DNA of 64,000 bases from an uncultured Lachnospiraceae bacterium (GTDB taxonomy: Bacteria; Bacillota; Clostridia; Lachnospirales; Lachnospiraceae): contig CAMEOT010000011.1 in assembly GCA_945929965.1 (NCBI GenBank), positions 1 to 64,000 on the forward strand, in the 5' to 3' direction. A program made the position numbers and the translations under genes. The notes under the pieces are model-generated. The model ran no database searches. It was given only the letters and a program-made list of their open reading frames with translations, and was not told the origin of the DNA. Numbering within the stretch: the first letter of the stretch is position 1; every line of letters begins with the position of its first letter. Of this stretch, positions 1,157 through 62,844 are shown piece after piece.

Positions 1157-1165
1157 AGCCACAAT

Positions 1166-1350
1166 TGAATATGGAGTATTCAGGTGCCGGAGCAGCCACG
1201 TAAGTAGCTGGCTCCGGTGAAAAGGGAAGCAGGTGTAAGTCCTGCACGAACTCGTCACCGTAATTAGGGAGCTGAAGCCGATAGATCACTGGGAGACCGG
1301 GAAGATGGCGGATGCAATGATCTTCAAGCCGGGAGACCTGCCTGAATGCT
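1166..1350 (+). promoter_or_regulatory. cobalamin riboswitch
   Basis: The stretch has the conserved elements of an adenosylcobalamin-class aptamer in order: AAAAGGGAAGCAGGTG (about 1219-1234), a GCC-rich core with CACTGGGAGACCGGGAAG (about 1288-1305), and the B12 box AGCCGGGAGACCTGCC (about 1328-1343). A further hairpin (GAATGCA about 1398 with TGCATTC about 1431) and a terminator follow. Ligand binding is expected to cause premature termination, lowering expression of the downstream transport and synthesis genes when B12 is sufficient. Confidence 0.93.
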
Positions 1351-1446
1351 GTACAGAAACATTTGTTTCAAAGCCACGAGTAACTGGTTGTACGTGTGGA
1401 ATGCAGAAGCGACAGAAGCTTTATTGCATTCGTTTCTTATGTGTAC

Positions 1447-1485
1447 AAACCCTTTACCTGATACAGGAAAGGGTTTTTGTTTTTG
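1447..1485 (+). terminator. riboswitch expression-platform terminator
   Basis: AAACCCTTT (1447-1455) pairs with AAAGGGTTT (1468-1476), with an inner CCTG/CAGG stem, and is followed by TTTTTGTTTTTGTT. It lies between the B12 box and the first gene, so this is a transcription-terminating riboswitch. Confidence 0.85.
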
Positions 1486-1576
1486 TTGCGAAAAACATGT
1501 TTCTGACTTACATATTTAAGGATACCGGGGTACCCCCGAAATGAAAAGAGACAGAAAAACTGTCAGAGGAGGAAAC

Positions 1577-2818
1577 ATGAAAAAAAGAATCGTAGCAGTA
1601 GTACTGGCAACCGTACTGGGCGCTGTATGCATCACCGGATGCGGAAATACCCAGGAGACCGTAGAGAGCACTGCACAGGCAAGCAGTGAGGCTCAGACCA
1701 CCCAGGCAGCGGAAACAGCAGCTACCGAAAGCACCGAAGATGCAGATCAGGCAGCAGCCGATGAAGTAGCAGCAATGATCGATGCCATCTATGTGCAGGA
1801 GAGAACTGAGAATACCGATAAGCAGTGTGCAGATGCCAAGGCAGCATGGGATGCACTGACCGACGCACAGAAGGAACTGGTAGAGGGGGAAAATGCAGAT
1901 CCTGATTATTTCGGCAGAGATACCGGAGATGCTTCCAAGGATGATCCCCGCAATCAGGATGAGATCGGTGAGAACGAGATTCTGGTAGTAAGCTTCGGTA
2001 CCTCCTTTAACGACAGCCGTGTGGCTGATATCAAGGGTATCGAGGATGCGATTGCAGCAGCCAATCCCGACTGGTCTGTAAGAAGAGCATTTACCGCACA
2101 GATCATCATCAATCATATACAGGCAAGAGATGATGAGCATATCGACAATATGGATCAGGCATTGGACCGCGCTGTGGCAAACGGTGTTAAGAACCTGGTA
2201 GTACAGCCTACCCATCTGATGCACGGGGCAGAGTATGACGAGCTGATGCAGGCAGTAGAAGCCTACAAGGATCAGTTCGCATCCGTAAAAGTCGCTGAGC
2301 CCCTGTTAGGTGAAGTTGGAGACGATGCAACCGTTGTCAATGTAGATAAGAAGGCAGTAGCAGAAGATCTGACTGCAGAAGCAGTGAAGACCGCTGGGTA
2401 TGACAGCCTGGATGCTGCAAAGGAAGATGGCGTGGCATTCGTATTCATGGGTCACGGAACTTCCCACACCGCAAAGGTGTCTTACAGCCAGATGCAGACC
2501 CAGATGAACGACCTCGGTTATGCTAACGTATTCATCGGAACTGTAGAAGGTGAGCCGGAAGAGACCGCCTGCGAAGAAGTCATCAAGGCTGTTGCGGAAG
2601 CAGGTTACACCAAAGTGGTTCTACGTCCCCTGATGGTAGTAGCAGGTGACCATGCCAACAACGATATGGCAGGCGAGGATGAGGATTCCTGGTTAAGCCA
2701 GTTCAACGCTTCCGGTAAGTTCGACAGCGTGGATACCCAGATCGCAGGCCTCGGTGGGATCAAGGCTATCCAGGATCTGTATGTGGCACATACCGCAGCA
2801 GCAATGGCTGAGAAATAA
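1577..2818 (+). CDS. cbiK: lipoprotein-anchored CbiK-type sirohydrochlorin cobaltochelatase
   Basis: Predicted to insert cobalt (or another metal) into sirohydrochlorin, the entry step of anaerobic B12 synthesis. The 413-residue protein starts at 1577 after GAGGAGGAAAC; an in-frame ATG at 1541 has no such site. Residues 1-22 are a lipoprotein signal with lipobox ITGC (Cys22), followed by a Thr/Ser/Ala/Glu-rich linker. Residues about 62-104 are a short helical module of the AWDALTDAQKELV type seen in Firmicute surface proteins. The CbiK domain runs from about 133: VVSFGTSF, QPTHLMHGAEYDEL (213-223), MGHGTSH (291-297) and GDHANND (358-364). His293 and His359 correspond to the family's metal-binding histidines. 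The signal puts it outside the membrane, unlike classical cytosolic CbiK. It is the first gene after the riboswitch. Confidence 0.9.
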   Translation: MKKRIVAVVLATVLGAVCITGCGNTQETVESTAQASSEAQTTQAAETAATESTEDADQAAADEVAAMIDAIYVQERTENTDKQCADAKAAWDALTDAQKELVEGENADPDYFGRDTGDASKDDPRNQDEIGENEILVVSFGTSFNDSRVADIKGIEDAIAAANPDWSVRRAFTAQIIINHIQARDDEHIDNMDQALDRAVANGVKNLVVQPTHLMHGAEYDELMQAVEAYKDQFASVKVAEPLLGEVGDDATVVNVDKKAVAEDLTAEAVKTAGYDSLDAAKEDGVAFVFMGHGTSHTAKVSYSQMQTQMNDLGYANVFIGTVEGEPEETACEEVIKAVAEAGYTKVVLRPLMVVAGDHANNDMAGEDEDSWLSQFNASGKFDSVDTQIAGLGGIKAIQDLYVAHTAAAMAEK

Positions 2819-2885
2819 ATAAGAATTAGAATAAGAATTAAAAAAGGAATTAAAATTAGGAATAAAATAAGGATTAAAATAAGCA
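2819..2885 (+). repeat. A/G/T-only degenerate short tandem repeat
   Basis: The spacer between cbiK and the next lipoprotein is a run of AATTA, AATAAG and GGAAT-like units with no cytosine from 2819 to 2882. It supplies a loose AAGGA ribosome site. It looks like slipped-strand expansion. Confidence 0.6.
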
Positions 2886-3827
2886 ATGAAAGCAAAGACA
2901 GTAATGAATAAAATCATAATCGTGGGCGGACTGAGTGCCTGTCTGCTGCTTGGCGGCTGTGGAGCCGGTCAGGCAGCGGATGCGACATCCGCAGAAAGCA
3001 CGGCTGCCGCACAGGAAAGTACCGTAACACCGACAGAGACCACGGAAGCGGAAAACATCAGCACAGAGACTGCGCAGGACAAAGCACAGCTTCCTGACGG
3101 TGACTACACCGCTGAATTTTCCACGGACAGCTCCATGTTCCATGTCAGTGAGGCCTGTGACGGCAAGGGAACACTGACGGTAAAGGATGGCGTTATGACC
3201 ATTCACATTTCCTTAGGCTCCAAGAAGATCCTGAATCTCTATCCGGGTCTGGCGGAAGATGCAGCAAAAGATGGCGCAGTGTTGCTTGAGCCCACCACGG
3301 ATACCGTGACTTACAGCGACGGCATGACGGAAGAAGTCTACGGCTTCGATGTTCCCGTACCTGCGATCGGAGAGGAATTCAATCTGGCACTGATCGGTAC
3401 CAAGGGAAAATGGTATGACCATAAAGTAAAGGTATCCGATCCGGTAGCGGAAGACAGCCGGGAAGCTGCGAACGGTTCCTTTGCTATGAGTACGCTGGCA
3501 GATGGCAGCTACACCATCGAACTGACGATGGAGGGCGGAAGCGGCAGAGCCTCTATCCAGTCTCCCGCACAGCTTGCGGTAGCTGACGGAGCGGCAACGG
3601 CGACTCTGGAATGGAGCAGCCCGAACTATGACTATATGCTGGTGAACGGTGAAAAATATCTGCCGGTAAATACGGAAGGCAATTCGGTATTTGAAGTGCC
3701 GGTGAAAGCACTGGATGCACCCCTTACCATGATCGGCGATACCGTGGCAATGAGCACACCTCACGAGGTGGAATACACCGTAACTTTCCATTCTGAGACA
3801 CTTGAGAGTACAGAGAGCGGCAAGTAA
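2886..3827 (+). CDS. putative lipoprotein with two related beta-rich domains
   Basis: A 313-residue protein with a lipoprotein signal (LLLGGC, Cys about 27), a low-complexity Thr/Glu/Ala linker to about residue 65, then two domains opening with similar strands: LPDGDYTAEF (about 68) and LADGSYTIEL (about 205). Each is followed by a VKDG or VADG turn. The layout recalls small surface ligand-binding domains such as NEAT, but I do not see enough motif to assign that family. It lies between the lipoprotein chelatase and an ABC binding protein in a B12-riboswitch unit, so a role in binding a metal, tetrapyrrole or corrinoid at the cell surface is an inference from context. The biochemical function is unknown. 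Confidence 0.75.
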   Translation: MKAKTVMNKIIIVGGLSACLLLGGCGAGQAADATSAESTAAAQESTVTPTETTEAENISTETAQDKAQLPDGDYTAEFSTDSSMFHVSEACDGKGTLTVKDGVMTIHISLGSKKILNLYPGLAEDAAKDGAVLLEPTTDTVTYSDGMTEEVYGFDVPVPAIGEEFNLALIGTKGKWYDHKVKVSDPVAEDSREAANGSFAMSTLADGSYTIELTMEGGSGRASIQSPAQLAVADGAATATLEWSSPNYDYMLVNGEKYLPVNTEGNSVFEVPVKALDAPLTMIGDTVAMSTPHEVEYTVTFHSETLESTESGK

Positions 3828-3832
3828 TACAT

Positions 3833-3925
3833 ATGATGCCAGGGTCAAAAGGTCTAAGCCCACATGTTTAGCACGGACCGAAGCGGAGCGGAGACGTGGG
3901 AGTGCGTAGCACGGAGCAATCCGCA
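3833..3925 (+). repeat. intergenic palindromic element sharing a 22-nt head with one at 62.6 kb
   Basis: Positions 3833-3854 (ATGATnnCAGGGTCAAAAGG plus TC) match 62656-62677 at 20 of 22 bases. Downstream, CCCAC (about 3860) can pair with GTGGG (about 3897), and AGCACGGA occurs twice. No coding function is seen. It probably belongs to a dispersed repeat family. Confidence 0.5.
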
Positions 3926-3944
3926 GACACAAATATTGCAGGCT

Positions 3945-5165
3945 ATGAAAGGCATGATAACTTTGAGGTCAGGAAGAAATAGAAGAAAATGGATTTATGT
4001 TCTGCTTCTTATGGGACTGCTGGGGCTAACTGGCTGCGGCAGTCCTTCTTCTGCTTCTATAGAGACATCGTCGGAAGCGACATCGGAGGTTGCCCAGGCA
4101 GCAGAGACTACGCAGGAAGAACAGACAGAATTAGTAAAAACAGGCAGCATGGAGCTGCAATATGCGGAAAATTTTGCGGTGGACTATTACGAAGATGGTT
4201 ATAAGATGCTGACAACGCTTCCCGATAGTAAACGGTATCTGTTAGTGCCGGAGGGACAGCCGATGCCAAGGGGACTGGATGAGGACGTCAGCATCTTGCA
4301 GGAACCGTTTCAAAATATATATCTGGTGGCATCCGGCGTGATGGACATGTTTGCCTCGCTGGATGCTGTGGATCAGATCCGGTTCTCCGGGCAGAAGCAG
4401 GAGAACTGGTACATTCAGACAGCAAAGGATGCCATGGAGGCAGGGGACATGATCTATGCCGGAAAATACAGTAAACCGGATTATGAATTACTGGTGTCTG
4501 AAAGCTGTGATCTGGCGATCGAGAACCGGATGATCACGCACTCGCCGGAGGTGGTGGAAATGCTTCAAAGCTTTGATATTCCGGTGATGATCGAATATTC
4601 CAGCTATGAAAAACATCCTTTGGGAAAAGTGGAATGGGTCAAATTTTTCGGAGCCCTGACCGGCAAAGAAGCGGAGGCAGAAGAAACCTTTGCGGAGCAG
4701 ACAGAGATTCTGGAAGAGGTAGAAAGTGGGGAAAAAACAGGGAAGACCATAGCATTTTTCTATGTGACTTCCAACGGATTGATCCAGGTACGGCAGAGTA
4801 CGGATTATATTCCGAAGCTGATCGAACTGGCAGGTGGAAGATACATTTTTGAGGATCTTGAGGACAGCGGAAGCGGACGCTCTACGCTGAACATGCCGGT
4901 CGAAGATTTTTACGCCGGGGCGAAGGACGCAGACATCCTGATCTACAACAGCTCGATCGACGGTGGTGTGACCACGATGGACGAGCTGATCGGCAAATGC
5001 AATATTCTAAAAGACTTTAAGGCGGTACAGGAGGGGCAGGTCTATTGCACCACCAACGATATGTACCAGCAGTCCATGGCGATCGGGTATTTATTGCAGG
5101 ATATGCATACGGTGTTGACGGACGATGATACCGCTAAGCTGCGTTATCTGTTTCTCTTACAGTAA
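3945..5165 (+). CDS. ABC transporter substrate-binding lipoprotein (BtuF/FepB class)
   Basis: Extracytoplasmic receptor for the permease and ATPase that follow. From the chosen start the protein is 406 residues. The signal ends in the lipobox LTGC, preceded by a basic stretch RSGRNRRK, and a Ser/Ala/Glu/Thr linker follows. The body has the class III binding-protein layout: an N-terminal lobe, a long helix with SYEKHPLGKVEWVKFFGALTG, and a C-terminal lobe ending in QQSMAIGYLLQDMHTVL. ATG codons at 3945 and 3954 are both possible; neither has a strong ribosome site, and the frame is open back to 3864. Corrinoid is the likeliest substrate given the riboswitch; haem, siderophore or a cobalt complex cannot be excluded. 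Confidence 0.85.
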   Translation: MKGMITLRSGRNRRKWIYVLLLMGLLGLTGCGSPSSASIETSSEATSEVAQAAETTQEEQTELVKTGSMELQYAENFAVDYYEDGYKMLTTLPDSKRYLLVPEGQPMPRGLDEDVSILQEPFQNIYLVASGVMDMFASLDAVDQIRFSGQKQENWYIQTAKDAMEAGDMIYAGKYSKPDYELLVSESCDLAIENRMITHSPEVVEMLQSFDIPVMIEYSSYEKHPLGKVEWVKFFGALTGKEAEAEETFAEQTEILEEVESGEKTGKTIAFFYVTSNGLIQVRQSTDYIPKLIELAGGRYIFEDLEDSGSGRSTLNMPVEDFYAGAKDADILIYNSSIDGGVTTMDELIGKCNILKDFKAVQEGQVYCTTNDMYQQSMAIGYLLQDMHTVLTDDDTAKLRYLFLLQ

Positions 5166-5258
5166 GATGGAGGACTTAGAAACGCAGCGCAAGTATAAGA
5201 GCGTTAGAATGAGACTAGAATACGATTGGAATACGAATAGGAAAAGAAGGAGAAAAAC

Positions 5259-6275
5259 ATGCAGCAGCGCAGGAAAATCAGATATCTCATAGCGTTTGTT
5301 CTAATGACGGCAGGCATTCTCGTGCTGCTGCTTTGCAATATAGGAATCGGAACAGTGAAGATCCCGCTGACAGAAATACTGACTACGGGAAGAACCAAAG
5401 AAGGCATGAATGCCAGAATCCTGTGGGAGATCCGATTTCCCCGGACACTGGCGACGGGGATTCTGGGCGGAGCGCTGGCACTTGCCGGGTATCTGTTGCA
5501 GACCTTTTTCCACAATCCCATAGCCGGACCCTTCGTCTTAGGAATTTCTTCCGGGGCGAAGATGGTAGTGGCGTTGGTGATGGTATTTTTGCTGGGGAAT
5601 ACGATTCGGGTCAGCTCCGGACTGTTGATCCTGGCGGCATTTTTAGGAGCTATGTTGTCCATGGGATTCGTGCTCCTCATGGCGAGGAAGGTAGACAGCA
5701 TGTCCATGCTGGTGGTCAGCGGCGTGATGATCGGTTACATCTGTTCCGCCATTACGGAACTGGTGGTGACTTTCGCGGAGGACGCGGATATCGTGAATCT
5801 CCACAACTGGTCAAGAGGAAGCTTTTCCGGAATGACCTGGGACAATGTGAAAGTGATGAGTATTGTGGTGGCAGTAACTTTTCTTATGGTGATCCTGTTG
5901 GCAAAGCCTCTGGAAGCCTACCAGCTGGGTGAAACGTATGCGCAGAATCTGGGAGTGAACATCCGGACATTGCGGATCCTGCTGGTGGTGCTGTCCAGCG
6001 TACTTTCGGCATGCATCGTGGCATTTGCCGGACCCATCTCTTTTGTGGGGATCGCCGTGCCGCAGTTGATCCGTAAATTATTCGGCACCACAAAGCCGTT
6101 ACTCATGATACCGGCATGTTTCTTGGGAGGCAGTGTGTTCTGCCTGTTCTGCGATCTGCTGGCGAGAACCTGGATGGCACCCACAGAACTGGGTATCAGC
6201 ACAGTGACGGCAATCTTCGGGGCACCGGTGGTATTGTGGATCATGGTATCCAAGAGCAGACGGGAGCGTGGATAA
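5259..6275 (+). CDS. FecCD-family ABC transporter permease
   Basis: A 338-residue integral membrane protein with about nine to ten hydrophobic segments and the family sequence GGALALAGYLLQTFFHNPIAGP near residue 70. Other hallmarks are GISSGAK, a cytoplasmic coupling loop with GLLILAAFLGA nearby, and FAGPISFVGIAVPQLIR near 252. This family (BtuC, FhuB, FecC/D) forms a dimeric channel for corrinoids, haem and siderophores. AAGGAG before the ATG is a good ribosome site. The last 8 bases overlap the ATPase gene, which suggests translational coupling. The upstream spacer is purine-rich with repeated GAATACGA-like units. Confidence 0.92.
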   Translation: MQQRRKIRYLIAFVLMTAGILVLLLCNIGIGTVKIPLTEILTTGRTKEGMNARILWEIRFPRTLATGILGGALALAGYLLQTFFHNPIAGPFVLGISSGAKMVVALVMVFLLGNTIRVSSGLLILAAFLGAMLSMGFVLLMARKVDSMSMLVVSGVMIGYICSAITELVVTFAEDADIVNLHNWSRGSFSGMTWDNVKVMSIVVAVTFLMVILLAKPLEAYQLGETYAQNLGVNIRTLRILLVVLSSVLSACIVAFAGPISFVGIAVPQLIRKLFGTTKPLLMIPACFLGGSVFCLFCDLLARTWMAPTELGISTVTAIFGAPVVLWIMVSKSRRERG

Positions 6276-7422
6276 CTTACCTATGAAGACGCAGAAGCCT
6301 TATTATATTACAACAGAAAAAATGAGCGTGGGTTACGACGGAAAGCCTCTGATCGAAGAAGTGGATATCAAACTCAGGAAGGGAGAGATCCTGACGTTAC
6401 TGGGACCTAACGGTGCCGGGAAATCCACGATTTTGAAAAGTATTGCGAGACAGCTGTCCCTGATCGGGGGAACGGTGCGGCTGGACGGAGAAGATATGCG
6501 GACACTCACCGGGGCAGAACTGTCGAAAAAAATGGCAGTGGTAATGACGAAACGTCTGCGGGGGGAACTGATGACCTGCGAGGATGTGGTTGCCACCGGA
6601 AGATACCCCTATACCGGACGTTTCGGCGTGCTGCGGGCAGAAGATCATGCAGCGGTTCAAAACGCCATGGAACTGGTGCAGGTGGCGGAGATTGGGGATT
6701 CTCTATTTGACCGGATCAGTGACGGACAGAGACAGCGTGTGATGTTAGCCAGAGCCATCTGTCAGGAACCGGAGATACTGATCCTGGATGAGCCGACTTC
6801 CTACCTGGATGTGCGGCATAAGCTGGAATTTTTATCAATCCTGCAAAAGCTGTGCAGGGAGAGGGCGCTTACGGTGATCCTGTCCTTACATGAACTGGAG
6901 CTGGCGGAGAAGATCTCCGATAGGATCCTGTGTGTGAACGGCAGGGCAGTGGACCGGATCGGAACGCCGGAGGAAGTCATGACAGCCGGCTATATCACCG
7001 AACTCTATTGCATCCGGATGGGAAGCTATGATGAGGGCAGCAGTGATATGGAGCTGGCGGCGCCGGAAGGAGTACCACAGGTCTTCGTGATCGCCGGAGC
7101 CGGAAGCGGGCGGAAAGCTTACCGGCGTTTGCAGAGAGCGGGAATCCCCTTTGTCACCGGGATCCTGTATGAAAATGACCTGGATTATCCCGTGGCGAAG
7201 GTGTTGGCTGCGGAGGTGATCGCAGAGTGTCCTTTTGAGCCGGTGTCACAGGAAAAAATACAGGCAGCGAAGAAGCAGCTGGAAAAGTGCAACCGTGTTA
7301 TCTGCTGCCGGGAGAATTTCGGCAGTCTGGAGACTTATCAGAGAGAGCTTTTAGAGTACGCAGAACAGCTGGGGAAGCAGATAGAAAAGCCAGAAAGCCC
7401 GGAGCAACAGCGTGGGTGTTAG
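6268..7422 (+). CDS. ABC transporter ATPase with extra C-terminal domain
   Basis: Energises the preceding permease. Walker A is GPNGAGKST, the signature is SDGQRQR, Walker B is ILILDEPTSYLD, and an H-loop LSLHE follows. The core ATPase spans residues about 10-250. It resembles FecE/BtuD, which are about 250-260 residues, but this protein has 384. The extra C-terminal part (about 265-380) starts VPQVFVIAGAGSG, includes an ILYENDLDYPVAKVLAAE segment and two nearby cysteines (VICC), and resembles a nucleotide-fold regulatory or partner-binding domain that I cannot name. Start is GTG at 6268 after GGGAG, overlapping the permease stop; ATG at 6283 is an alternative. Confidence 0.9.
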   Translation: MDNLPMKTQKPYYITTEKMSVGYDGKPLIEEVDIKLRKGEILTLLGPNGAGKSTILKSIARQLSLIGGTVRLDGEDMRTLTGAELSKKMAVVMTKRLRGELMTCEDVVATGRYPYTGRFGVLRAEDHAAVQNAMELVQVAEIGDSLFDRISDGQRQRVMLARAICQEPEILILDEPTSYLDVRHKLEFLSILQKLCRERALTVILSLHELELAEKISDRILCVNGRAVDRIGTPEEVMTAGYITELYCIRMGSYDEGSSDMELAAPEGVPQVFVIAGAGSGRKAYRRLQRAGIPFVTGILYENDLDYPVAKVLAAEVIAECPFEPVSQEKIQAAKKQLEKCNRVICCRENFGSLETYQRELLEYAEQLGKQIEKPESPEQQRGC

Positions 7423-7479
7423 AAAACAGAGAAACGAAATTCCCGGGATGTCGTTGGCATCTGTGGGATGGAGAAAACG

Positions 7480-9003
7480 ATGGCAAAAGTTATTATGATA
7501 CAGGGCACCATGTCCGGTGCCGGGAAAAGTCTCCTGGTGGCGGGCCTATGCCGGATCTTCCGGCAGGACGGTTATCGGGTCGCCCCTTTTAAATCACAGA
7601 ATATGGCACTCAATTCCTATATCACGAAAGAAGGACTGGAAATGGGCAGGGCACAGGTGATGCAGGCGGAAGCGGCAGGGATCGAACCGCTGGTGTGCAT
7701 GAATCCTATTTTATTAAAGCCCACTAGTCATACCGGATCCCAGGTCATCGTGAACGGGGAGGTACGGGGAAATCTGTCCGCCAGAGACTATTTTGCCCAT
7801 AAGACAGAACTGATCCCGGATATCAAGGCAGCCTTCCGCAAGCTGGAGACTTATGCGGATATCATTGTCATCGAGGGCGCCGGAAGTCCGGCGGAGATCA
7901 ATCTGAAACAGAATGACATCGTAAATATGGGAATGGCGGCAATGGTGGATGCACCGGTACTTTTAGTGGGAGACATTGACAGAGGCGGCGTGTTCGCACA
8001 GCTTTTGGGAACCCTGATGCTGCTGACCGAAGAGGAACGGGAACGGGTAAAGGGATTGATCATCAACAAATTCCGTGGAGACAGCACGATTTTAGACCCC
8101 GGCATTCAGATGTTAACAGAACGGGGGCAGGTGCCGGTGCTGGGAACGGTACCTTATATGGAACTTACGCTGGAAGATGAGGACAGTCTGACGAACCGTT
8201 TCGATGCAAAACATGTGGGGAAGATCGATCTGGCTGTGATCCACTATCCCAGAATTTCAAATTTTACGGATTTTGATGTGTTTGAGCAGATGCCGGAGGT
8301 CAGTGTCCGGTATGTGACGAATGTAAGAGAGCTGGGGACGCCGGATCTGATATTTCTCCCCGGCAGTAAAAATACCATGGGAGATCTGAAATGGATGCGG
8401 CAGAACGGACTGGAGGCAGCGGTAAAACGGGCTGCGGGAAAAGTTCCCATTTTCGGGATCTGCGGAGGCTATCAGATGTTAGGCTGTGAGATCGCGGATC
8501 CGGACAGTGTAGAGGAAGGCGGACAGATCCGCGGCATGGAACTGCTTCCGGTACGGACAGTGCTGCAGAAGGAGAAACATCGCTGCCAGACAGCTGGAAC
8601 TCTGGATGCGGTGGAGGGTATTTTCTCCGGACTTACGGGATGCGAGTTCACGGGGTATGAGATCCATATGGGACAGACAGTGTATTGCAACGGGGATGGC
8701 AGCGGTGCGAAGGGGACAGTGGACAAGGTAGCCGGACCGGCAAATGGTGCAGAAAATGTAGTCAGTGACTCCACCGGCAGAATCTATGGTTCCTATATTC
8801 ACGGTCTGTTCGACAAGGGGGAGATCGCCGGGCGTATGATACAGACCCTGGCCCGGGAAAAAGGCATCTCTCTGGAGGACGGCGCCTGGGAGGATTACCG
8901 CACTATTAAGGAAAGACAATACGATAAGCTGGCAGATACCCTGCGGGAATATCTGCGTATGGAGGAAATCTATGGAATGCTCAGAGAAGCCCGTATTTCA
9001 TAA
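7480..9003 (+). CDS. cbiP: cobyric acid synthase CbiP (CobQ)
   Basis: ATP- and glutamine-dependent amidation of adenosylcobyrinate a,c-diamide at the b, d, e and g side chains. The 507-residue length fits the family. The N-terminal P-loop ATPase-like domain begins [11 protein letters not shown]. The middle has [11 protein letters not shown] and [12 protein letters not shown]. The C-terminal class I glutaminase domain has the nucleophile region [11 protein letters not shown] and a closing YIHGLFD histidine. Start 7480 is chosen because GGAG at 7470-7473 lies 6 bases upstream; an ATG at 7468 would put that site inside the gene. Its end overlaps cobT by 32 bases. Confidence 0.95.
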
Positions 9004-10060
9004 CTATACCGGACGGGAATTGGCGCAGATCCGGATCACGCCGCCGGACGAAGCAGTGAGAAAGCTTGTGAAAAAGCATTGGGACACTCTGGCAAAGCCG
9101 CTGGACGGCATGGGTAGCTTTGAAATCATCACGGCACAGATCGGAGCCATCTTAGGGACGGAAGTGATCGATATCTGTAAAAAGGGTGTGCTGATCTTCT
9201 GTGCCGATAACGGCATTGTAGAGGAGGGTGTGACCCAGTCTGGGCAGGAGGTTACGCTGGCGGTGGCAAAGTCCATGGCCAGGAAGGGTTCCTCCGTCTG
9301 CAGGATGGCACAGAGCATTGGTGCCGAGACGATCCCTGTGGACATCGGGATAAATAGTGAGGAATCCATTCCCGGAGTACTGGACTGCAAGGTGCGTCCC
9401 GGTACCCGGAATTTTCTCAAAGAACCGGCTATGACGGAAGAAGAGACCGTCCGTGCCATTGCCACAGGAATCGGACTGGTACAGGAGTGTAAGGAAAAAG
9501 GATACGGTATCCTTGCCACCGGGGAAATGGGAATTGGCAACACCACCACCAGCAGTGCAGTGACAGCCGCCCTATTACAGTGTGGGGCAGAGGAAGTCAC
9601 CGGCAGAGGCGCGGGACTGACAGATCAGGGACTGGCTCGGAAGCAACAGGTGGTGCGCACCGCCTTGGAAACCTATGATCTGTGGCATGCGGATGCCTTC
9701 ACGGTATTGCAGACAGTCGGAGGGCTGGATATTGCCGGACTGACCGGTATGTGCATCGGCGGAGCCTTGTGGCATGTGCCCATCGTGCTGGATGGCGTGA
9801 TCAGCATGGCAGCGGCCCTGGTGGCGAAGCGGCTGTTCCCCGGTGTGCGGGAATATCTGATCCCTTCCCATCTGGGGAAAGAACCGGCGGCAGTGAAGCT
9901 GGCAGATGCTTTGCAGCTGTCTCCGGTGATCCATGCGGGAATGGCACTGGGAGAAGGAACCGGAGCCGTTATGATGTTCACACTGCTGGATATGGCGATG
10001 AGCATTTATGGACAGAGCGCTACCTTCTCAGAAATCAAAGTAGAACAATATAAACGTTAA
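8972..10060 (+). CDS. cobT: nicotinate-nucleotide:dimethylbenzimidazole phosphoribosyltransferase CobT
   Basis: Activates the lower-ligand base (5,6-dimethylbenzimidazole or another base) as its alpha-ribotide for nucleotide-loop assembly. The 362 residues match the family. Visible landmarks are [10 protein letters not shown] near the N-terminus, [13 protein letters not shown], the [14 protein letters not shown] phosphate-binding stretch and the catalytic-glutamate region ALGEGTGA near the C-terminus. AGGAGG-like sequence just before the ATG supports the start, within the tail of cbiP. No bza (benzimidazole synthesis) genes are nearby, so the base is either made elsewhere or scavenged. Confidence 0.95.
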
Positions 10061-10220
10061 CAGTTCAGCCATGAACATATCCGGGCGCAAAAATCATGCT
10101 TGCATGATTTTTTGAGCGAATATGTTCATGAGATGAGCGCCGGTCTTTGAGCAAGGGTAGTCACGAAGTGACGTAAAAGCGTGATAACGCGACCTTGCGA
10201 ATAGGCGCGGCTGAACGTTA
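10058..10220. repeat. multi-hairpin palindromic element between cobT and cobU
   Basis: Outer inverted repeat: TTAACaGTTCAGCC at 10058-10070 against GGCTGAACGTTAA at 10209-10220. Inside are ATGAACATAT (10071-10080) with ATATGTTCAT (10120-10129), enclosing AAATCATGC-tt-GCATGATTT (10091-10110), and a second arm with GCAAGG/CCTTGC and TCACgaaGTGA. The shape is that of a miniature inverted-repeat or REP-like element. It has no reading frame. Confidence 0.65.
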
Positions 10221-10238
10221 ATCAAATGGAGAAGCAAC

Positions 10239-10808
10239 ATGATGACATTGATCCTGGGCGGCAGTGGCAGCGGGAAATCCGCTTATGCGGAAGATTATCT
10301 GCTGCGGGCTGCCGGTGATAAGAAAAAATATTATATCGCCACCATGCAGATCCGGGATGCGGAGATGCAGGCAAAGGTGGACAGGCATCACAGACTGCGA
10401 CAGGGGAAAGGCTTCACTACCATCGAACAGTCTACGGCTCTGGAGCAGGCAGTCTTACAAATGGAACCGGCAGGAGCTGCACTGTTGGAATGTATGTCAA
10501 ATCTCACCGCCAACGAAATGTTTTCCGGGGAACAGCCTGTGGATCGTCAGACGGTGATCACAAAAATTCTGCAAGGCATGGAAGGCTTAAGAAAACAGGC
10601 GGATCCGTTAGTCATCGTAACCAACAATGTATTTGAGGATGGAATTATCTACGATGATCCTACGATGGAATACATCGAGGCACTGGGGCGGATCAACGAA
10701 AGACTTGCCGCGGAGGCGGACGAGGTTGTGGAAGTTACTGCGGGGATCTCGCAGCGGCTCAAGCTGTACTCTGCAGAAGAAAAAACGTGGAACCGGCAGG
10801 ATGGGTAG
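10239..10808 (+). CDS. cobU: adenosylcobinamide kinase / guanylyltransferase CobU
   Basis: Phosphorylates adenosylcobinamide and then transfers GMP to give adenosylcobinamide-GDP. The 189-residue protein carries the P-loop LGGSGSGKSAYAE, then TMQIRDAEMQAKVDRHHRLR with the histidine used for GMP transfer, and the strand LLECMSNLTANEMF. It ends with the typical ADEVVEVTAGISQRLK. GGAG before the ATG is clear. It follows a palindromic element that separates it from cobT, and a 10-base tandem repeat follows it before cobS. Confidence 0.94.
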   Translation: MMTLILGGSGSGKSAYAEDYLLRAAGDKKKYYIATMQIRDAEMQAKVDRHHRLRQGKGFTTIEQSTALEQAVLQMEPAGAALLECMSNLTANEMFSGEQPVDRQTVITKILQGMEGLRKQADPLVIVTNNVFEDGIIYDDPTMEYIEALGRINERLAAEADEVVEVTAGISQRLKLYSAEEKTWNRQDG

Positions 10809-10820
10809 GATAGTCAGTCA

Positions 10821-10850
10821 AGATCAGACGAGATCAACATAGATCAGCAT
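10821..10850 (+). repeat. three 10-base tandem repeats before cobS
   Basis: AGATCAGACG, AGATCAACAT and AGATCAGCAT lie head to tail between the cobU stop and the cobS ribosome site AGAAAGGAAA. Confidence 0.8.
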
Positions 10851-10865
10851 AGAAAGGAAACAGAT

Positions 10866-11639
10866 ATGCGAATTATCAAATCATTTTTCATAGCGTTTTC
10901 CATGTATTCCAAGATCCCTATGCCACAGTTTCAGTGGAAGGACGAGGATATGCGGTACGCACTCTGCTTTTTTCCATGGGTGGGGGTGGTGATCGGTGCT
11001 TTGTGGTATCTGTGGAAATGGTTCTGTGACCGGTTCGCGGTGGGAACCCTGTGCTATGCTGCGGTGGGGACGGCAATACCGCTTTTGGTCACCGGGGGCT
11101 TTCATGTGGACGGTTTTTTAGATACCTGTGATGCCCTGCATTCCTACCAGCCAAGAGACGGGAAGCTGGAGATCTTGAAGGACTCTCATATCGGGGCATT
11201 TGCGGTGATCATGCTTGCACTGTACGGACTGATTTTTCTGGGAGGATTCTCGGAGATCACGACACTGCGCATGCTTACTGTGACGGGAGCCGGATGCTTC
11301 CTGTCCAGAGTATTAAGCGGTATCGCAGTGGTGAGCTTCCCTTCGGCAAAGCAGGAAGGGACACTGTATCTGTTTGCGGATAAAGCCCACAAAAGGGTGG
11401 TAAAAACTGCTTTATACGGACAGGGAATCCTTTGCATTTTATTTATGCTGTGGATATCTGTCGTGGCGGGAGGGCTCGCCGTGGCAGCAGCCCTGCTTAG
11501 CTTTGCATATTATTACCGGCGCAGCAAAAAAGAGTTCGGCGGCATCACCGGGGACACCGCGGGATATTTTGTAACACTCTGTGAAGGGTGCGTGGTGGCT
11601 GCCGTGGCAATCGCCCAACATCTGGTGCCGGTAGTGTAA
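10866..11639 (+). CDS. cobS: cobalamin synthase CobS (adenosylcobinamide-GDP ribazoletransferase)
   Basis: Joins adenosylcobinamide-GDP with alpha-ribazole(-phosphate) at the membrane, the last assembly step. The 257-residue polytopic protein has the family signature GGFHVDGFLDTCDAL near residue 78, with the acidic metal site, followed by KDSHIGAFAV. It has about six membrane segments. Start ATG follows AGAAAGGAAACAG. Its position between cobU and the second CobU-like gene fits nucleotide-loop assembly. Confidence 0.95.
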   Translation: MRIIKSFFIAFSMYSKIPMPQFQWKDEDMRYALCFFPWVGVVIGALWYLWKWFCDRFAVGTLCYAAVGTAIPLLVTGGFHVDGFLDTCDALHSYQPRDGKLEILKDSHIGAFAVIMLALYGLIFLGGFSEITTLRMLTVTGAGCFLSRVLSGIAVVSFPSAKQEGTLYLFADKAHKRVVKTALYGQGILCILFMLWISVVAGGLAVAAALLSFAYYYRRSKKEFGGITGDTAGYFVTLCEGCVVAAVAIAQHLVPVV

Positions 11640-11693
11640 GAATGTAGTACCTGAGATTTTTACCTAGGAGTGTATTGGAAAAGGGAGAGAGAA

Positions 11694-12089
11694 ATGATAT
11701 TGATCATTGGCGGATTTGCCCAGGGAAAATTGCATTATGTGAAGCAGCGTTATGTACACTGTGAGGATGGACGGGAAGTGACTGTTTTGGACGGAACACT
11801 GGCACTGCCCGCAGAGACAGGTGCAGGGCAGGTGATCGTCAATCATCTGCACCGCTATATCCGGGAGCAGCTGCGACAGGGAACAGACCCGGAGGCGATG
11901 ATAGAGAATTTTGGCAAGGAATATCCGGACTGCATTCTGATCTGTGACGAGATCGGCAACGGCATCGTCCCCATGGAAGCGGAGGAGAGAACTTACAGAG
12001 AGCGCACCGGCAGAATACTGGAACAGCTGGCAGCGCAGGCAGATGAGGTGGTGAGAGTGGTATGCGGAATCGGACAGAAGATCAAATAG
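11694..12089 (+). CDS. degenerate CobU-like paralogue
   Basis: A 131-residue protein whose ends resemble CobU: an N-terminal loop IIGGFAQGKLHY and a C-terminal ADEVVRVVCGIGQKIK. The P-loop lacks the Ser/Thr after Lys (GKL), and there is no counterpart of the guanylyl-accepting His region, so both activities are doubtful. The acidic strand ICDEIGNGIVPMEAEERTYRERTG resembles CobU's second half. Start 11694 follows GGGAGAGAGAA; a GTG at 11670 lies too close to its AGGAG. It overlaps the following cobC by 28 bases. It could be a partner subunit, a kinase-only relic or a regulator. Confidence 0.75.
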   Translation: MILIIGGFAQGKLHYVKQRYVHCEDGREVTVLDGTLALPAETGAGQVIVNHLHRYIREQLRQGTDPEAMIENFGKEYPDCILICDEIGNGIVPMEAEERTYRERTGRILEQLAAQADEVVRVVCGIGQKIK

Positions 12090-12778
12090 AGATTCATCTG
12101 ACCCTCATTCGGCACGGGGCGACGCTTTCCAATAAAGAGGGGCGATATCTAGGGAAAACGGACGAGACTTTAAGTCCGGCCGGCATCGGCGCACTGGAAA
12201 AATCCGTGGCAGACAGGAACTACCCAACTGCCGACGTCCTGTTTTCCGGTCCCATGAAGCGGTGCCTTGAGACCGCACAGATCCTGTATCCGGGGCAGAC
12301 TCCTATCATTATCCCGGAGTGGACAGAGATGGATTTCGGTGCGTTTGAGGGGCATAATTATCAGGAACTTTCAAAAGATCCGAACTATCAGAGATGGATC
12401 GACAGCGGAGGTACCCTGCCGTTTCCGGAGGGAGAGAGTAGGGAAAAGTTTATCCGCCGAAGTGTTGCCGGATACGAAAAAATGGTATATCACATGAAAA
12501 TGATCTGGGAGAGAAGTGCTGCATCGGGGCAGGGGGATCGCAAGATACAAAGTGTATCCGCGGTGGTTCACGGCGGAACTATCATGGCGCTGCTTAGTCA
12601 TTTCCTCGGTGGAGAATATTTTGACTATCAGGAAAAATGCGGACAGGGTTACAGTGGCAGGCTGGCATTTAAGGCAGGCGGAGGAGCCCCTCAGTGGAAG
12701 GAATTTCGCCCGCTGTCGGAAGCTACAGTATCGGAAGCTGCAGTATCGGAACTTACAAAAGGAGAAACGAACAGATGA
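12062..12778 (+). CDS. cobC: histidine phosphatase family, probable alpha-ribazole phosphatase
   Basis: Expected to dephosphorylate alpha-ribazole-5'-phosphate or adenosylcobalamin-5'-phosphate. The phosphoglycerate-mutase-like catalytic motif LIRHGATLSN lies near residue 15. Glu in EMDFGAFEGHNY and the second histidine in VVHGGTIM complete the site. The C-terminal tail carries a short Ser-Glu-Ala-x-Val repeat produced by a 15-base DNA tandem repeat. The gene starts inside the preceding CobU-like gene and ends overlapping cbiB by 4 bases (ATGA), so it is tightly coupled. Substrate assignment rests on operon context. Confidence 0.85.
   Translation: MRNRTEDQIEIHLTLIRHGATLSNKEGRYLGKTDETLSPAGIGALEKSVADRNYPTADVLFSGPMKRCLETAQILYPGQTPIIIPEWTEMDFGAFEGHNYQELSKDPNYQRWIDSGGTLPFPEGESREKFIRRSVAGYEKMVYHMKMIWERSAASGQGDRKIQSVSAVVHGGTIMALLSHFLGGEYFDYQEKCGQGYSGRLAFKAGGGAPQWKEFRPLSEATVSEAAVSELTKGETNR
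12716..12750 (+). repeat. 15-base tandem repeat at the 3' end of cobC
   Basis: TCGGAAGCTACAGTA is followed by TCGGAAGCTGCAGTA and a partial third copy, TCGGA. It is in frame and encodes the repeating tail of the phosphatase. Confidence 0.85.
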
Positions 12779-13758
12779 AATATCATATCCTGGCATTTGG
12801 AGCGGGATTTTTACTGGATCAGATCTTTGGAGATCCCTATTTTCTGCCACATCCTATCCGGGGAATCGGCTGGTTGATCGCGAAGACAGAAAAAGCACTG
12901 CGCAGCGGCAATCCAGAGGGAAATTCCCCGGAGAGAGAGGCAGCGGAGCGCAGACAGGGGAAACTTTTGGTGGTAATTGTTTTGCTGCTTACGGGAATGT
13001 TTACGGCATTGATCCTGGTGGGAGCATATGCACTTTATCCGAAGATCGGAATGGTGGTGGAAGCGGTCATGACCTATCAGATCCTGGCGGCGAGGTGCCT
13101 GCAGGTGGAGAGCGGAAAAGTATGGAAACAATTAAAGGCGGGGAATGTGGAGGCTGCCAGAGAGGCGGTATCCATGATCGTGGGAAGAGATACCCAGAAT
13201 CTCACTAAAGAAGGGGTGGCGAAGGCTGCCATCGAGACTGTGGCGGAGAATACTTCCGATGGTGTGATCGCGCCGATGCTGTATACAGCACTGGGAGGGC
13301 CGGTGCTTGGTTTTTTATATAAGGCAGTCAATACCATGGACTCTATGGTCGGTTATAAAAATGACAGATATCTGCACTTTGGAAGGGCGGCGGCGAAGCT
13401 GGATGATGTGGTGAATTTTCTTCCGGCAAGGATCAGCGCACTTTTGATGATCGGGGCGGCATTTCTCAGCGGAAAAAGCTATAACGGCAGGCAGGCATGG
13501 TGTATCTGGCACAGAGACAGCAGAAAGCACGCCAGTCCCAATTCCGCCCAGACGGAATCTGTATGTGCCGGCGCATTGGGAATACAGTTGGCAGGAGATG
13601 CCAGTTATTTTGGCAAAGTCGTGAAGAAACCCTATATCGGGGATCCGAAACGGCAGGTGGAATATGAGGATATCCGGAGAGCCAATCGTCTGATGAACCG
13701 GACGGCATGGATCTGTGAGCTGCTGTGCCTGGGGATCCTGATGGTTGTGGCAGTATAA
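12775..13758 (+). CDS. cbiB: adenosylcobinamide-phosphate synthase CbiB
   Basis: Attaches aminopropanol phosphate (or aminopropanol) to adenosylcobyric acid. This membrane protein of 327 residues has family landmarks FLLDQIFGDPYFLPHPIRGIGW at the N-terminus, SMIVGRDT, ETVAENTSDGVIAPM, NTMDSMVGYKN and a late HRDSRKHASPNS. The start at 12775 follows AAAGGAG; upstream in-frame codons belong to the repeat in cobC. A spacer with a hairpin separates it from cobD. Confidence 0.95.
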   Translation: MKYHILAFGAGFLLDQIFGDPYFLPHPIRGIGWLIAKTEKALRSGNPEGNSPEREAAERRQGKLLVVIVLLLTGMFTALILVGAYALYPKIGMVVEAVMTYQILAARCLQVESGKVWKQLKAGNVEAAREAVSMIVGRDTQNLTKEGVAKAAIETVAENTSDGVIAPMLYTALGGPVLGFLYKAVNTMDSMVGYKNDRYLHFGRAAAKLDDVVNFLPARISALLMIGAAFLSGKSYNGRQAWCIWHRDSRKHASPNSAQTESVCAGALGIQLAGDASYFGKVVKKPYIGDPKRQVEYEDIRRANRLMNRTAWICELLCLGILMVVAV

Positions 13759-13771
13759 GGAGGGCTTCTAT

Positions 13772-13814
13772 CCGCGTACTTGTGACTGCGCATTGTGCGA
13801 AAGCACCGTACGGG
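13772..13814. repeat. hairpin in the cbiB-cobD spacer
   Basis: CGCGTACttGTG (from about 13774) can pair with GCACcGTACG (about 13803-13812) around TGCGCATTGTGCG. No coding frame with a ribosome site is seen in this 158-base spacer apart from the cobD leader. Confidence 0.45.
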
Positions 13815-13916
13815 AAAATATGGATGGTAAAGCACAAGTTATGAAATGCTTGATGATTTGCAGATGAAAGAGAACATGAAAAACGCTATGGTAATAGGAA
13901 CCGGAAAGGGAGGAAA

Positions 13917-14984
13917 ATGCAGCAGAACATACATGGTGGTGACATATACAGCAGACAGATACGGCTGGATTTTTCGGTAAACGGTAATCCCTTGGGAATG
14001 CCGGCGGAGGCAAGGCTTTCACTTTTAGCAGCTATCAATCATGTGGGGGAATATCCCGATGCCGCAGCAGGAGAACTGACAGAGACAGTAAGTCATATGC
14101 TGTCGGTGCAAAGCGGCAGAGAGATCCCGGGGGAGTATCTGGTATTCGGCAACGGTGCGTCAGAACTTTTTCTGGCGATCATGCATGCACTTAAGCCTAA
14201 AAATATTGTAATCCCGGTGCCGTCCTTTTACGGATATGAGTATGCGGCGAAGGCGGCAGACAGCCATATAAAATATGTATATCTGTCGGAAGAGACCGCA
14301 TTTTGCCCGGGGAAGGAATTGTTACAGGCGCTGACGGCGGATACAGACCTGCTGTTTCTTGCAAATCCCAATAATCCCACAGGGCAGCTGATGAGTAGGG
14401 AATATCTGCGAGAGCTTATGGAGCATTGCAGACAGCAGGGAATCGTCGTAGTTCTGGATGAATGTTTTATAGAGTTCTGTGAGACTGATAGAGAGCAGCC
14501 CGTATCCCTGCTTGGTAAGATAGATCAGTATGCGAATCTGTTGCTGGTGCGGGCTTTTACAAAAAGCTTTGCCATGCCGGGGGTGCGCCTGGGGTATCTG
14601 GTGTGCAGTAATGAGGAGCTTCGGGAGAAAATCCGCAGACAGCTGCCGGAATGGAATCTGTCGGTGTTCGCCCAGAGAGCGGGCATCGTCTGCGCGGGGC
14701 AGGCGGAGCAATATCTGCAGGATACCGTGGAATATGTGAAAACCGAGCGGGCGTATCTTAGGGAAGGGCTGGAGGCACCGGGTATCCGGGTAGTGTCCGG
14801 AGAAGCGGATTTTCTGCTGCTCTACACCACACAGCCTATCTATGACAGATTGCTTGCAAAAGGCATTCTGATCCGCAACTGTGAAAATTTCCGGGGACTG
14901 GGAGAGGGCTATTACCGGATCGCGGTGAAGAAGCATGAAGAGAATGAAGTGCTCTTAGACGAGCTTGAACAGTGCCTGTCGTAA
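13917..14984 (+). CDS. cobD: CobD-like threonine-phosphate decarboxylase (PLP, aminotransferase class I/II fold)
   Basis: Expected to make (R)-1-amino-2-propanol O-2-phosphate, the substrate of CbiB. The 355-residue PLP enzyme has FGNGASELF for cofactor phosphate binding, ANPNNPTGQ, VLDECFIEF and the Schiff-base lysine in RAFTKSFAMPGVRLGY. The family also includes histidinol-phosphate aminotransferase, and the two are hard to separate by motif alone; location between cbiB and cbiC decides for CobD. GGGAGGAAA immediately before the ATG sets the start. Confidence 0.88.
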   Translation: MQQNIHGGDIYSRQIRLDFSVNGNPLGMPAEARLSLLAAINHVGEYPDAAAGELTETVSHMLSVQSGREIPGEYLVFGNGASELFLAIMHALKPKNIVIPVPSFYGYEYAAKAADSHIKYVYLSEETAFCPGKELLQALTADTDLLFLANPNNPTGQLMSREYLRELMEHCRQQGIVVVLDECFIEFCETDREQPVSLLGKIDQYANLLLVRAFTKSFAMPGVRLGYLVCSNEELREKIRRQLPEWNLSVFAQRAGIVCAGQAEQYLQDTVEYVKTERAYLREGLEAPGIRVVSGEADFLLLYTTQPIYDRLLAKGILIRNCENFRGLGEGYYRIAVKKHEENEVLLDELEQCLS

Positions 14985-15047: not shown

Positions 15048-15704
15048 ATGGGAAAGTGGGAGCACAAGAACATCGAATATGTATTGCCGGAAGAGATCGA
15101 GAAGCGAAGCTTTGCGATCATTGCAGCGGAACTGGCAGAGCGGGGCGTCGTCCTGCCCGCAGAGCAGGATATGATCACCAGACGGGTGATCCATACCAGT
15201 GCGGATTTTGATTATGCGCAGACGATGACCTATTCGGAAAATGCAGTGGAGATCGCCAAAGACTTATTAAAAAACGGTGCGGATATCGTGACGGATACGA
15301 ATATGGCACTGGCAGGGATCAATAAAAAGGTGCTGGCTTCTTTTGGAGGGGAGGCACATTGCTACATGGCAGACGCTGAGGTGGCAGCAATGGCAAAGGA
15401 ACGCAGGACCACCCGGGCAGCGATCAGCATGGAGCTGGCATCAAAACGGGAAAAACCGGTGATCTTCGCTGTGGGAAATGCACCTACGGCACTGATACAG
15501 ATTTTCGAGATGATGCAGGAGAGCGACTGGCGTCCGGCATTCGTCATCGGAGTTCCCGTGGGCTTCGTGAATGTGGAGGCCGCCAAGGAACTGATCCTTC
15601 AGACGGATGTGCCCCATATTATCAACCGCGGGAGAAAGGGCGGCAGCAACGTGGCAGCAGCCATCTGCAATGCATTGTTGTATGAGCTGAGGAAGGAAAG
15701 GTAG
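15048..15704 (+). CDS. cbiC: cobalt-precorrin-8 methylmutase CbiC
   Basis: Moves the C11 methyl group to C12 to give cobyrinate. The 218 residues match the family. The catalytic histidine lies in RRVIHTSADFDY, and the conserved segments NGADIVTDTNMALAGI, GNAPTAL and IGVPVGFVNVEAAKE are present. A CGGGAGAATA ribosome site precedes the ATG. It lies 5 bases upstream of cbiD. Confidence 0.96.
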   Translation: MGKWEHKNIEYVLPEEIEKRSFAIIAAELAERGVVLPAEQDMITRRVIHTSADFDYAQTMTYSENAVEIAKDLLKNGADIVTDTNMALAGINKKVLASFGGEAHCYMADAEVAAMAKERRTTRAAISMELASKREKPVIFAVGNAPTALIQIFEMMQESDWRPAFVIGVPVGFVNVEAAKELILQTDVPHIINRGRKGGSNVAAAICNALLYELRKER

Positions 15705-62655: not shown

Positions 62656-62780
62656 ATGATATCAGGGTCAAAAGGTCAAAAAGCCGTTCGTGCTTGCACG
62701 ATAAGGCTTTTGAACTTGGGACCCTCCAAACATGAGGAAGTAGCGATTTACGCTGTAAATCAGCGGATTCCGAATGCTTG
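62656..62780. repeat. multi-hairpin palindromic element upstream of pheA
   Basis: AGGGTC (62664-62669) with GACCCT (62720-62725), AAAAGCC with GGCTTTT, and TCGTGC-tt-GCACGA (62688-62701) make one nested hairpin; GATTTACgctGTAAATC follows. The head matches 3833-3854 at 20 of 22 bases. No gene is present in the 288-base spacer 62557-62844 apart from this and the pheA ribosome site. Confidence 0.6.
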
Positions 62781-62844
62781 AGAATTGCGATAGCTGCTTT
62801 GCAGCGGAGAATTCGTGGATATCAGTTAAGTTAAGGAGAACAGC

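Follow-up and report, generated by a model that had tools for sequence, protein, structure and literature searches.

Organization of the locus

The window analysed here is the whole 64,000-nucleotide stretch of contig CAMEOT010000011.1 (assembly GCA_945929965.1, positions 1 to 64,000) from an uncultured Lachnospiraceae bacterium. Near its 5′ end a cobalamin riboswitch leads a block of five genes that code for a CbiK-family chelatase with a lipoprotein signal, two further lipoproteins and the permease and ATPase of an ATP-binding cassette (ABC) importer. The block runs directly, on the same strand, into the genes cbiP to cbiA, and is examined here as a candidate surface system for salvage of a late precursor of vitamin B12. 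Its features are the following:

1165..1359, + strand: cobalamin riboswitch aptamer RF00174 (cmscan 106.1 bits, E 1.4e-25; gathering score of 31.5 exceeded)
1447..1476, + strand: terminator-like hairpin, then a U-rich run (−15.3 kcal/mol, z −2.87; 1 of 200 shuffles as good)
1577..2818, + strand: CbiK-family chelatase, predicted exported lipoprotein, 413 aa (lipobox Cys22; Glu219, His293, His359)
2886..3827, + strand: lipoprotein with two predicted NEAT domains, 313 aa (AlphaFold model, Foldseek; PF05031 sub-threshold)
3864..5165, + strand: substrate-binding lipoprotein, BtuF-like (PF01497, E 1.2e-27)
5259..6275, + strand: FecCD permease, BtuC-like (profile match)
6268..7422, + strand: ABC ATPase, BtuD-like (profile match)

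The hairpin is likely the expression platform of the riboswitch, as predicted from its fold alone. A scan for sigma-70 promoters and terminators returned fewer promoter-like sites than shuffled sequences and missed the hairpin at 1447; it was not used. An earlier reading of the letters alone (the sequence-only reading) had described a cobalamin riboswitch over a module of three lipoproteins and a FecCD/ATPase importer fused to the synthesis operon, and the searches found each of these elements where it had placed them.

The CbiK-family chelatase

The cbiK open reading frame (ORF) spans 1541–2818. Its likely start is the ATG at 1577, found by eye behind a GGAGG sequence, which gives a precursor of 413 residues whose lipobox is ITGC. 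PF06180 covers residues 135–410 counted from this ATG (234.8 bits against a cut-off of 26.2, E 1.3e-69). Three solved chains only were matched by sequence, Salmonella CbiK (5e-38), Porphyromonas gingivalis FetB (5e-36) and Desulfovibrio CbiK (4e-29), and the same three chains came out on top when the AlphaFold model of the chelatase was compared by fold (Foldseek 1.3e-19 for FetB). His293 and His359 correspond in the alignment to the two histidines of Salmonella CbiK, numbered His145 and His207 in PMC7689651.

The comparison was extended to related loci, taken as the best 80 of 581 confirmed relatives and drawn from named records. The window protein and all 80 homologues (81/81) share Thr212, His213, Glu219, His293 and His359, in agreement with the intact active site claimed by the sequence-only reading. 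Met215 is also identical in the window and the 80 homologues and marks the exported clade, the residue being Ile in 15 of 16 other CbiKs. An export signal was recognized, by pattern and by eye, in 80/80 loci. It has a lipobox in 75 of them (74 by pattern and L108, where it follows a non-ATG start, by eye) and is of the Sec type, lacking the lipobox Cys as judged by eye, in the remaining five (L098, L102, L104, L113, L120). On a 56-row tree (27 of the 80 loci, ten relatives, the window and 18 other CbiKs, with several long branches) the 38 exported CbiKs form one clade with support 100/98; L108, L102 and L120 carry the label cyt on this tree although they are exported, their signals having been missed by the lipobox pattern. 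From these sequence features the window protein seems to be a CbiK-family enzyme placed outside the membrane, as its lipoprotein signal had first suggested. The possibility of a cytosolic protein with a mistaken start was considered and rejected in view of the strong ribosome-binding site at ATG 1577 and of the export signal found in every related locus.

Two unusual arrangements of the gene were seen among the relatives. L138 has two CbiK matches within one ORF and no NEAT domain in its available sequence. CbiK and CbiL are fused in one ORF at L041:11653-13218 (genome G023) and at L203/L230 (G073); SUMT over the cut-off is absent from G023 and present in G073.

The NEAT lipoprotein

The second lipoprotein scores 27.9 bits with PF05031, below the cut-off of 32.8. 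No solved relative was found by sequence search, and a profile search gave 18 matches with no NEAT chain among them, so that the NEAT identity was revealed by fold comparison alone. The AlphaFold model (pLDDT 81.0, pTM 0.49) matches the two-domain NEAT unit N2N3 of IsdH with a Foldseek E of 8.6e-8 and a template modelling score (TM) of 0.25, a low value presumably due to a different setting of the two domains. Against the single NEAT domain of IsdX1 the values are E 2.5e-4 and TM 0.71 by target length, with a root-mean-square deviation of 2.9 over 121 columns. On the strength of the model the protein is a tandem NEAT protein, an identity beyond what the sequence-only reading had proposed. NEAT domains bind haem, and their fold is known for flat, haem-like ligands; those that bind haem carry a YxxxY motif in the last strand. 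The corresponding strands of the window protein, located by inspection rather than by residue alignment to a solved NEAT domain, read Y177xxxV181 and H293xxxY297. For the substrate-binding lipoprotein (3864..5165) no convincing solved relative was found by sequence.

Conservation of the block

Among the 80 related loci a NEAT domain is found in 78, a BtuF-like protein in 69, BtuC in 67, BtuD in 64 and all five parts in 62. CbiK and NEAT form a single protein in 24/80 loci, NEAT and BtuF do so in 24/80, and both fusions occur in 12; such fusions suggest a hand-over among NEAT, CbiK and the binding protein. The window permease scores 212.8 bits against the 334 asked for by the NCBI BtuC equivalog and passes as a member of the FecCD family. 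The cobalamin riboswitch was looked for in 41 exported-CbiK loci, mostly short ones, and precedes 40 of the 41 cbiK genes scanned; the one miss starts 132 bases upstream. It precedes 2 of 18 other cbiK genes, a contrast that partly reflects gene order because many of these may be internal to operons. CbiL can adjoin the block (L066, L093, L094, L109, L126). No riboswitch was found near the lone cbiL of G022 (L040).

A cobalamin pathway truncated before CbiH

The genes that follow the block in the window code for the lower part of cobalamin synthesis:

7468..9003, + strand: cbiP (NF001989, 626 bits, cut-off 273)
8972..14984, + strand: cobT, cobU, cobS, cobU-like, cobC, cbiB and cobD (cobT, cobU, cobS and cbiB by profile)
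15048..15704, + strand: cbiC (PF02570, E 8e-77)
15710..16897, + strand: cbiD (TIGR00312, 429 bits, cut-off 200)
16855..17658, + strand: cbiF (TIGR01465, 325 bits, cut-off 259.65)
17531..18814, + strand: cbiG (CbiG_N, mid and C domains)
18860..19606, + strand: cbiH, 248 aa, first ring enzyme found in the genome (TIGR01466, 304 bits, cut-off 246.35)
19630..21852, + strand: cbiJ-cbiE-cbiT fusion (TIGR00715, TIGR02467 and TIGR02469, all above cut-offs)
21849..23252, + strand: cbiA (NF002204, 440 bits, cut-off 254)

The equivalog or subfamily cut-offs of cbiD, F, H, E, T, J and A are all passed. The cobU-like gene (11670) and cobC (12062) were named by inspection, as was cobD, which its profile identifies only as an aminotransferase.

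The host genome, 99.9% complete, has PF06180 at one locus, and PF01903 matches only inside it; the second, cytosolic cbiX/cbiK sought at the suggestion of the sequence-only reading is thus absent from it, in a search that did not include late chelatases of the CobN type. Neither HemC (PF01379) nor HemB (PF00490) was found. The TP_methylase profile identifies four genes, namely cbiF, cbiH, cbiE and one on another contig, which is taken as rsmI because 37 of 43 sampled genomes that lack ring genes contain a single TP_methylase. No CbiL is over the cut-off (best score 48.9 against 163.25, given by cbiH) and no SUMT either (152 against 185, given by cbiF). The same searches gave the same absences in G006, a closed genome of the same genus, and the same pattern recurs in three genomes of 90% completeness or more (G011, G018 and G053). 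Of the steps searched, all those from CbiH on are present, and the earlier ones are absent with the exception of the surface chelatase. The host has common gut bacteria among its relatives and is apparently incapable of producing the first half of B12. The absence of the hem genes, SUMT and CbiL, which the sequence-only reading had not covered, makes salvage necessary and narrows down the substrate.

Compared with G006, the ratio of nonsynonymous to synonymous substitution rates (dN/dS) lies between 0.056 and 0.270 over 20 genes, cbiA not being among them (cbiC 0.056, cbiH 0.059, cbiK 0.076, cbiD 0.085 and the NEAT gene 0.270). These low values indicate that the retained genes are under purifying selection and are not decaying.

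Distribution among relatives and carrier genomes

A sample of 61 genomes (the host's own and 60 relatives, the only ones searched for HemB) was divided by ring genes, a ring-gene genome being one with three or more TP_methylases, or G033 (81% complete, two TP_methylases). Of the 18 ring-gene genomes 11 have an exported CbiK, against 0 of 43 others (Fisher p 8e-8, uncorrected for kinship). The value is 3e-7 without the own genome (10/17) and 2e-6 when G033 is counted as ring-gene negative. Such a link to ring genes is not what one would expect of a plain importer of cobalamin or haem. HemB was found in 0 of the 11 exported-CbiK genomes of the sample, and HemC only in G004.

A second set comprised 50 carrier genomes from the 80 loci, picked mostly for their longer contigs. 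At least four TP_methylases were found in 49 of the 50; G075 shows only two, and G079 has a fifth. CbiL and SUMT are both missing from 13 carriers and both present in 20, while 12 have CbiL only and five SUMT only; in this count G095 was scored CbiL-positive at 142.6 bits, below the cut-off, and G094 passes it (168.2) only together with in-frame neighbours. HemC tracks SUMT, being present in 24/25 SUMT-positive versus 1/25 SUMT-negative genomes, the latter a fragment at a contig end. Two cultured strains, Gemmiger formicilis DFI.6.10 (G085, L096) and Butyrivibrio sp. AE2015 (G091, L106), showed none of CbiL, SUMT and HemC in these searches. A second CbiK is found in 11 of the 20 carriers with CbiL and SUMT, in two of the 12 with CbiL only and in none of the 18 without CbiL (a match of 21.1 bits in G099, below the cut-off, was not counted). 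Nine of these 13 second CbiKs were examined and none has a lipobox.

The cbi genes around cbiF are well kept where CbiL is missing. In 17 CbiL-minus genomes cbiD was found in 17, cbiG, cbiH and cbiJET in 16 and cbiC and cbiA in 14 each, several of the misses lying at contig ends. In 12 regions from genomes that lack both CbiL and SUMT, cbiD and cbiF are present in 12 and cbiG, cbiH and cbiJET in 11, the twelfth (G107) stopping at a contig end. On a 60-row CbiH tree the CbiL-minus genomes occur at scattered positions (14 changes, nine or more of them forced, against a shuffled mean of 19.1), and CbiL seems to have been gained and lost repeatedly without a special CbiH. A special CbiH replacing CbiL was rejected as a candidate, the CbiL-minus rows being spread over the CbiH tree, though somewhat clustered.

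Two exceptional gene sets were encountered. Genomes G004 (L029), G061, G065, G070, G080 and G088 have SUMT and HemC, no CbiL over the cut-off, and an exported CbiK with cbi genes; their own precorrin-2 apparently goes unused for B12. L047 (G010) carries a riboswitch, BtuFCD, cbiD, F, G, JET and A, and no CbiK, CbiH or CbiL was found there, a possible case of even later truncation or of decay.

Proposed function and alternatives

The reading that we favour, by no wide measure but as somewhat better than an even chance, is that the block is a surface system that captures late isobacteriochlorin precursors of B12, loads them with cobalt and imports them. The NEAT domains of the second lipoprotein would bind a flat tetrapyrrole outside the membrane, either sirohydrochlorin or C20-methylated factor III, into which the lipoprotein CbiK would insert Co(II) on the same side. 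The binding lipoprotein would then pass the cobalt complex to the FecCD/ATPase importer, and inside the cell CbiH and the retained cbi and cob enzymes would finish cobalamin. Because CbiL, HemB, HemC and SUMT are absent, cobalt-factor III is the compound that the host should import, and relatives with a CbiL of their own could take in cobalt-sirohydrochlorin. Cobalt-tetrapyrrole scavenging, already put forward in the sequence-only reading, is sustained by the gene context (export in 80/80 loci, NEAT in 78/80, riboswitch in 40/41, ring-gene genomes only in the sample), which it fits better than uptake of cobalamin or haem. That context does not demonstrate the metal, the direction of the reaction, the substrate or the import of the product, and we infer these as well as the order of hand-over.

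Several observations weigh against this proposal. The chelatase reaches 188.7 of the 400 bits required by the sirohydrochlorin cobaltochelatase equivalog NF047852, so it is assigned here to the CbiK family and not to this equivalog. The literature treats the nearest studied exported homologue, FetB/IhtB (two names that we take to denote the same protein), as a protein of haem/iron or Mn-porphyrin handling, and our literature search brought up no record of gut factor III. Shared ancestry is not taken into account in the association test, which counts G033 as positive. Both CbiL and SUMT are held by 20 of the 50 carriers, so the block is not confined to obligate salvagers and also serves cells without need to salvage. 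Carrier genomes may be incomplete, and some of their absences may be assembly gaps. BtuF is missing from 11/80 loci; three of these have little sequence behind cbiK and eight have 9–10 kilobases, so that adjacency of the importer is not universal. G092 and G106 have it on the same contig, away from cbiK.

The chief rival explanation keeps the same system and moves the entry to sirohydrochlorin or its cobalt complex, C20 methylation being carried out by a promiscuous CbiH or by an unrecognised methyltransferase. Sirohydrochlorin is the known substrate of CbiK, and the relatives with CbiL and no SUMT (12 of the 50 carriers, plus G022) carry the same block. The host genome, however, has no spare TP_methylase beyond the one taken as rsmI, its CbiH is of ordinary length (248 aa), and the CbiH proteins of CbiL-minus genomes form no clade of their own; we consider this entry point unlikely, while taking it seriously. 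Import of finished corrinoids (cobalamin or cobinamide), with CbiK as a binding module and the cbi genes idle or serving otherwise, would account for the resemblance of permease and ATPase to BtuC and BtuD and for the riboswitch, which is usual for B12 importers. It is improbable given that the block is absent from 43/43 sampled genomes without ring genes, that the active site is intact in 81/81 proteins, that the NEAT fold is known for flat haem-like ligands and that the ring genes are under purifying selection.

Under another alternative the block would be a counterpart of P. gingivalis Iht that handles haem/iron or metalloporphyrins, its lipoprotein stripping iron from haem or swapping metals. 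This appears quite improbable: the B12 riboswitch, the direct run into the cob/cbi operon and the sample-wide restriction to ring-gene genomes all speak against it. In its favour are the close relationship of FetB/IhtB (E 5e-36; Foldseek 1.3e-19), the haem typically bound by NEAT domains and the importer IhtC-E, which is of the same kind (PMC10913741). Very improbable, finally, is a recent loss of the upper pathway that left the remaining cbi genes and the block to decay, since dN/dS is well below 1 in the 20 genes compared and the regions without CbiL and SUMT keep cbiD and cbiF in 12 of 12 cases and cbiG, cbiH and cbiJET in 11. Signs that could be expected of such decay are limited to G010, a possible late stage of loss without CbiK, CbiH and CbiL, and to cbiP of G009 and cbiD of G061, each split over two ORFs by decay or sequencing error.

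If capture, cobalt loading and import of a late precursor is what the block does, the apparent near-complete B12 production of many Lachnospiraceae and Oscillospiraceae would depend on a late intermediate not so far counted as a shared nutrient. CbiL-minus genomes would then be a salvage type of their own and not mere annotation gaps, and surface CbiKs such as IhtB/FetB, studied as haem proteins, would gain a B12 reading.

Relation to known systems

Salmonella CbiK (1qgo, 2xwp) shares its fold and its active-site His and Glu with the window chelatase; it is cytosolic and uses self-made sirohydrochlorin. The periplasmic CbiK of Desulfovibrio vulgaris (2xvx) is an exported CbiK fold like that of the window and is not known to belong to a block with NEAT proteins and an importer. 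In the Isd relay of Gram-positives, NEAT receptors pass a tetrapyrrole to a lipoprotein and an ABC importer; unlike that relay, the window block is B12-regulated and joined to a chelatase. Iht (IhtB/FetB) of P. gingivalis is the closest known system. Like the window block it comprises a CbiK-like lipoprotein (IhtB), a binding protein, a permease and an ATPase, and it is discussed as a haem/iron system (PMC10913741). It has an outer-membrane TonB receptor (IhtA) where the window block has NEAT lipoproteins instead; no TonB-dependent receptor was found among the ORFs of the block, the rest of the genome not having been searched for one. The window block further differs by its B12 riboswitch, its run into the cob/cbi operon and its location in Clostridia. 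A review reports FetB-dependent Mn-protoporphyrin (PMC13402209), and for P. gingivalis the steps to precorrin-2 are described as missing (PMC6461909).

The host resembles tetrapyrrole precursor salvagers, for which types from 5-aminolaevulinic acid (ALA) to precorrin-2 are given in PMC8123684: early tetrapyrrole genes are missing and corrin and loop genes are kept. It departs from their profile in lacking the full ring set that includes CbiL. In the portion of Shelton et al. (PMC6461909) at our disposal, 87.1% of 201 tetrapyrrole precursor salvagers have a CbiL/CobI annotation and 12.9% do not, and no surface chelatase or importer such as that of the host is described for them. For salvagers of cobyrinate, cobyrinate-diamide and cobinamide the point of entry comes after completion of the corrin ring (Rodionov et al., PMC6593275, and Shelton et al.). 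They complete B12 from an imported intermediate, as is proposed for the host, which differs from them in keeping the ring enzymes from CbiH on. Its proposed entry at cobalt-factor III should lie beyond precorrin-2, the latest precursor type found in print, and before the cobyrinate and cobinamide salvagers. Anaerostipes genomes were reported to be mostly without cbiK, with a hint that cobalamin needs other bacteria (PMC12888040). The literature search, which covered titles and opening lines and left most subscription papers outside its coverage, returned no account of a CbiL-minus salvage type with a surface chelatase. New here are the tandem NEAT lipoprotein, a pathway truncated before CbiH, the fusions, the association of exported CbiK with ring genes and the purifying selection.

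A cluster of cbiL with ABC-2 and NEAT genes

In 7 of 33 CbiL-positive exported-CbiK genomes (G067, G072, G089, G090, G092, G102, G106; loci L211:513-3455, L202 and L220-L225) cbiL adjoins genes for an ABC ATPase, an ABC-2 permease and a NEAT protein; the one such NEAT protein that was read has its membrane anchor at the C terminus. L085 contains the ABC-2 pair too. The cluster occurs in 7/20 SUMT-positive versus 0/13 SUMT-negative genomes (p 0.027 in a test made after the cluster had been seen; p 0.029 without G066, where cbiL is found at a contig end). Over 104 residues the NEAT domain of the cluster shares 45% identity with one in the window, and from this similarity the two may bind similar compounds. 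In Petralouisia muris (G067; L066, L223) the cluster lies directly behind the CbiK block and another cbiL is found elsewhere; of the two CbiL genes of this genome, the ring operon contains one, and the other adjoins the block of the exported CbiK (L200, L223). Dorea sp. 5-2 (L107) also carries the cluster.

ABC-2 permeases are mostly exporters, and the cluster may, speculatively, be the matching exporter. Four of the seven cluster genomes have a second CbiK, so that the exported compound could already carry cobalt. Gut and rumen Clostridia might even share factor III, CbiL producers exporting it through the ABC-2 transporter with its membrane-anchored NEAT protein, surface CbiK loading it with cobalt, and the same cell, or neighbours in which every step before CbiH has been lost, importing it. 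We regard such sharing as rather doubtful; if true, B12 synthesis would be partly extracellular and split between species.

Flanking features

A TetR-family regulator is encoded just 5′ of the riboswitch (465–1121, + strand) and is 94% identical to its G006 counterpart. Directly 3′ of cbiA lies a gene for a DUF362 protein with 4Fe-4S domains (23286–24416, + strand). A Clostridiales-1 RNA (RF01699, 105.1 bits) was detected near the other end of the window at 62657–62824, + strand.

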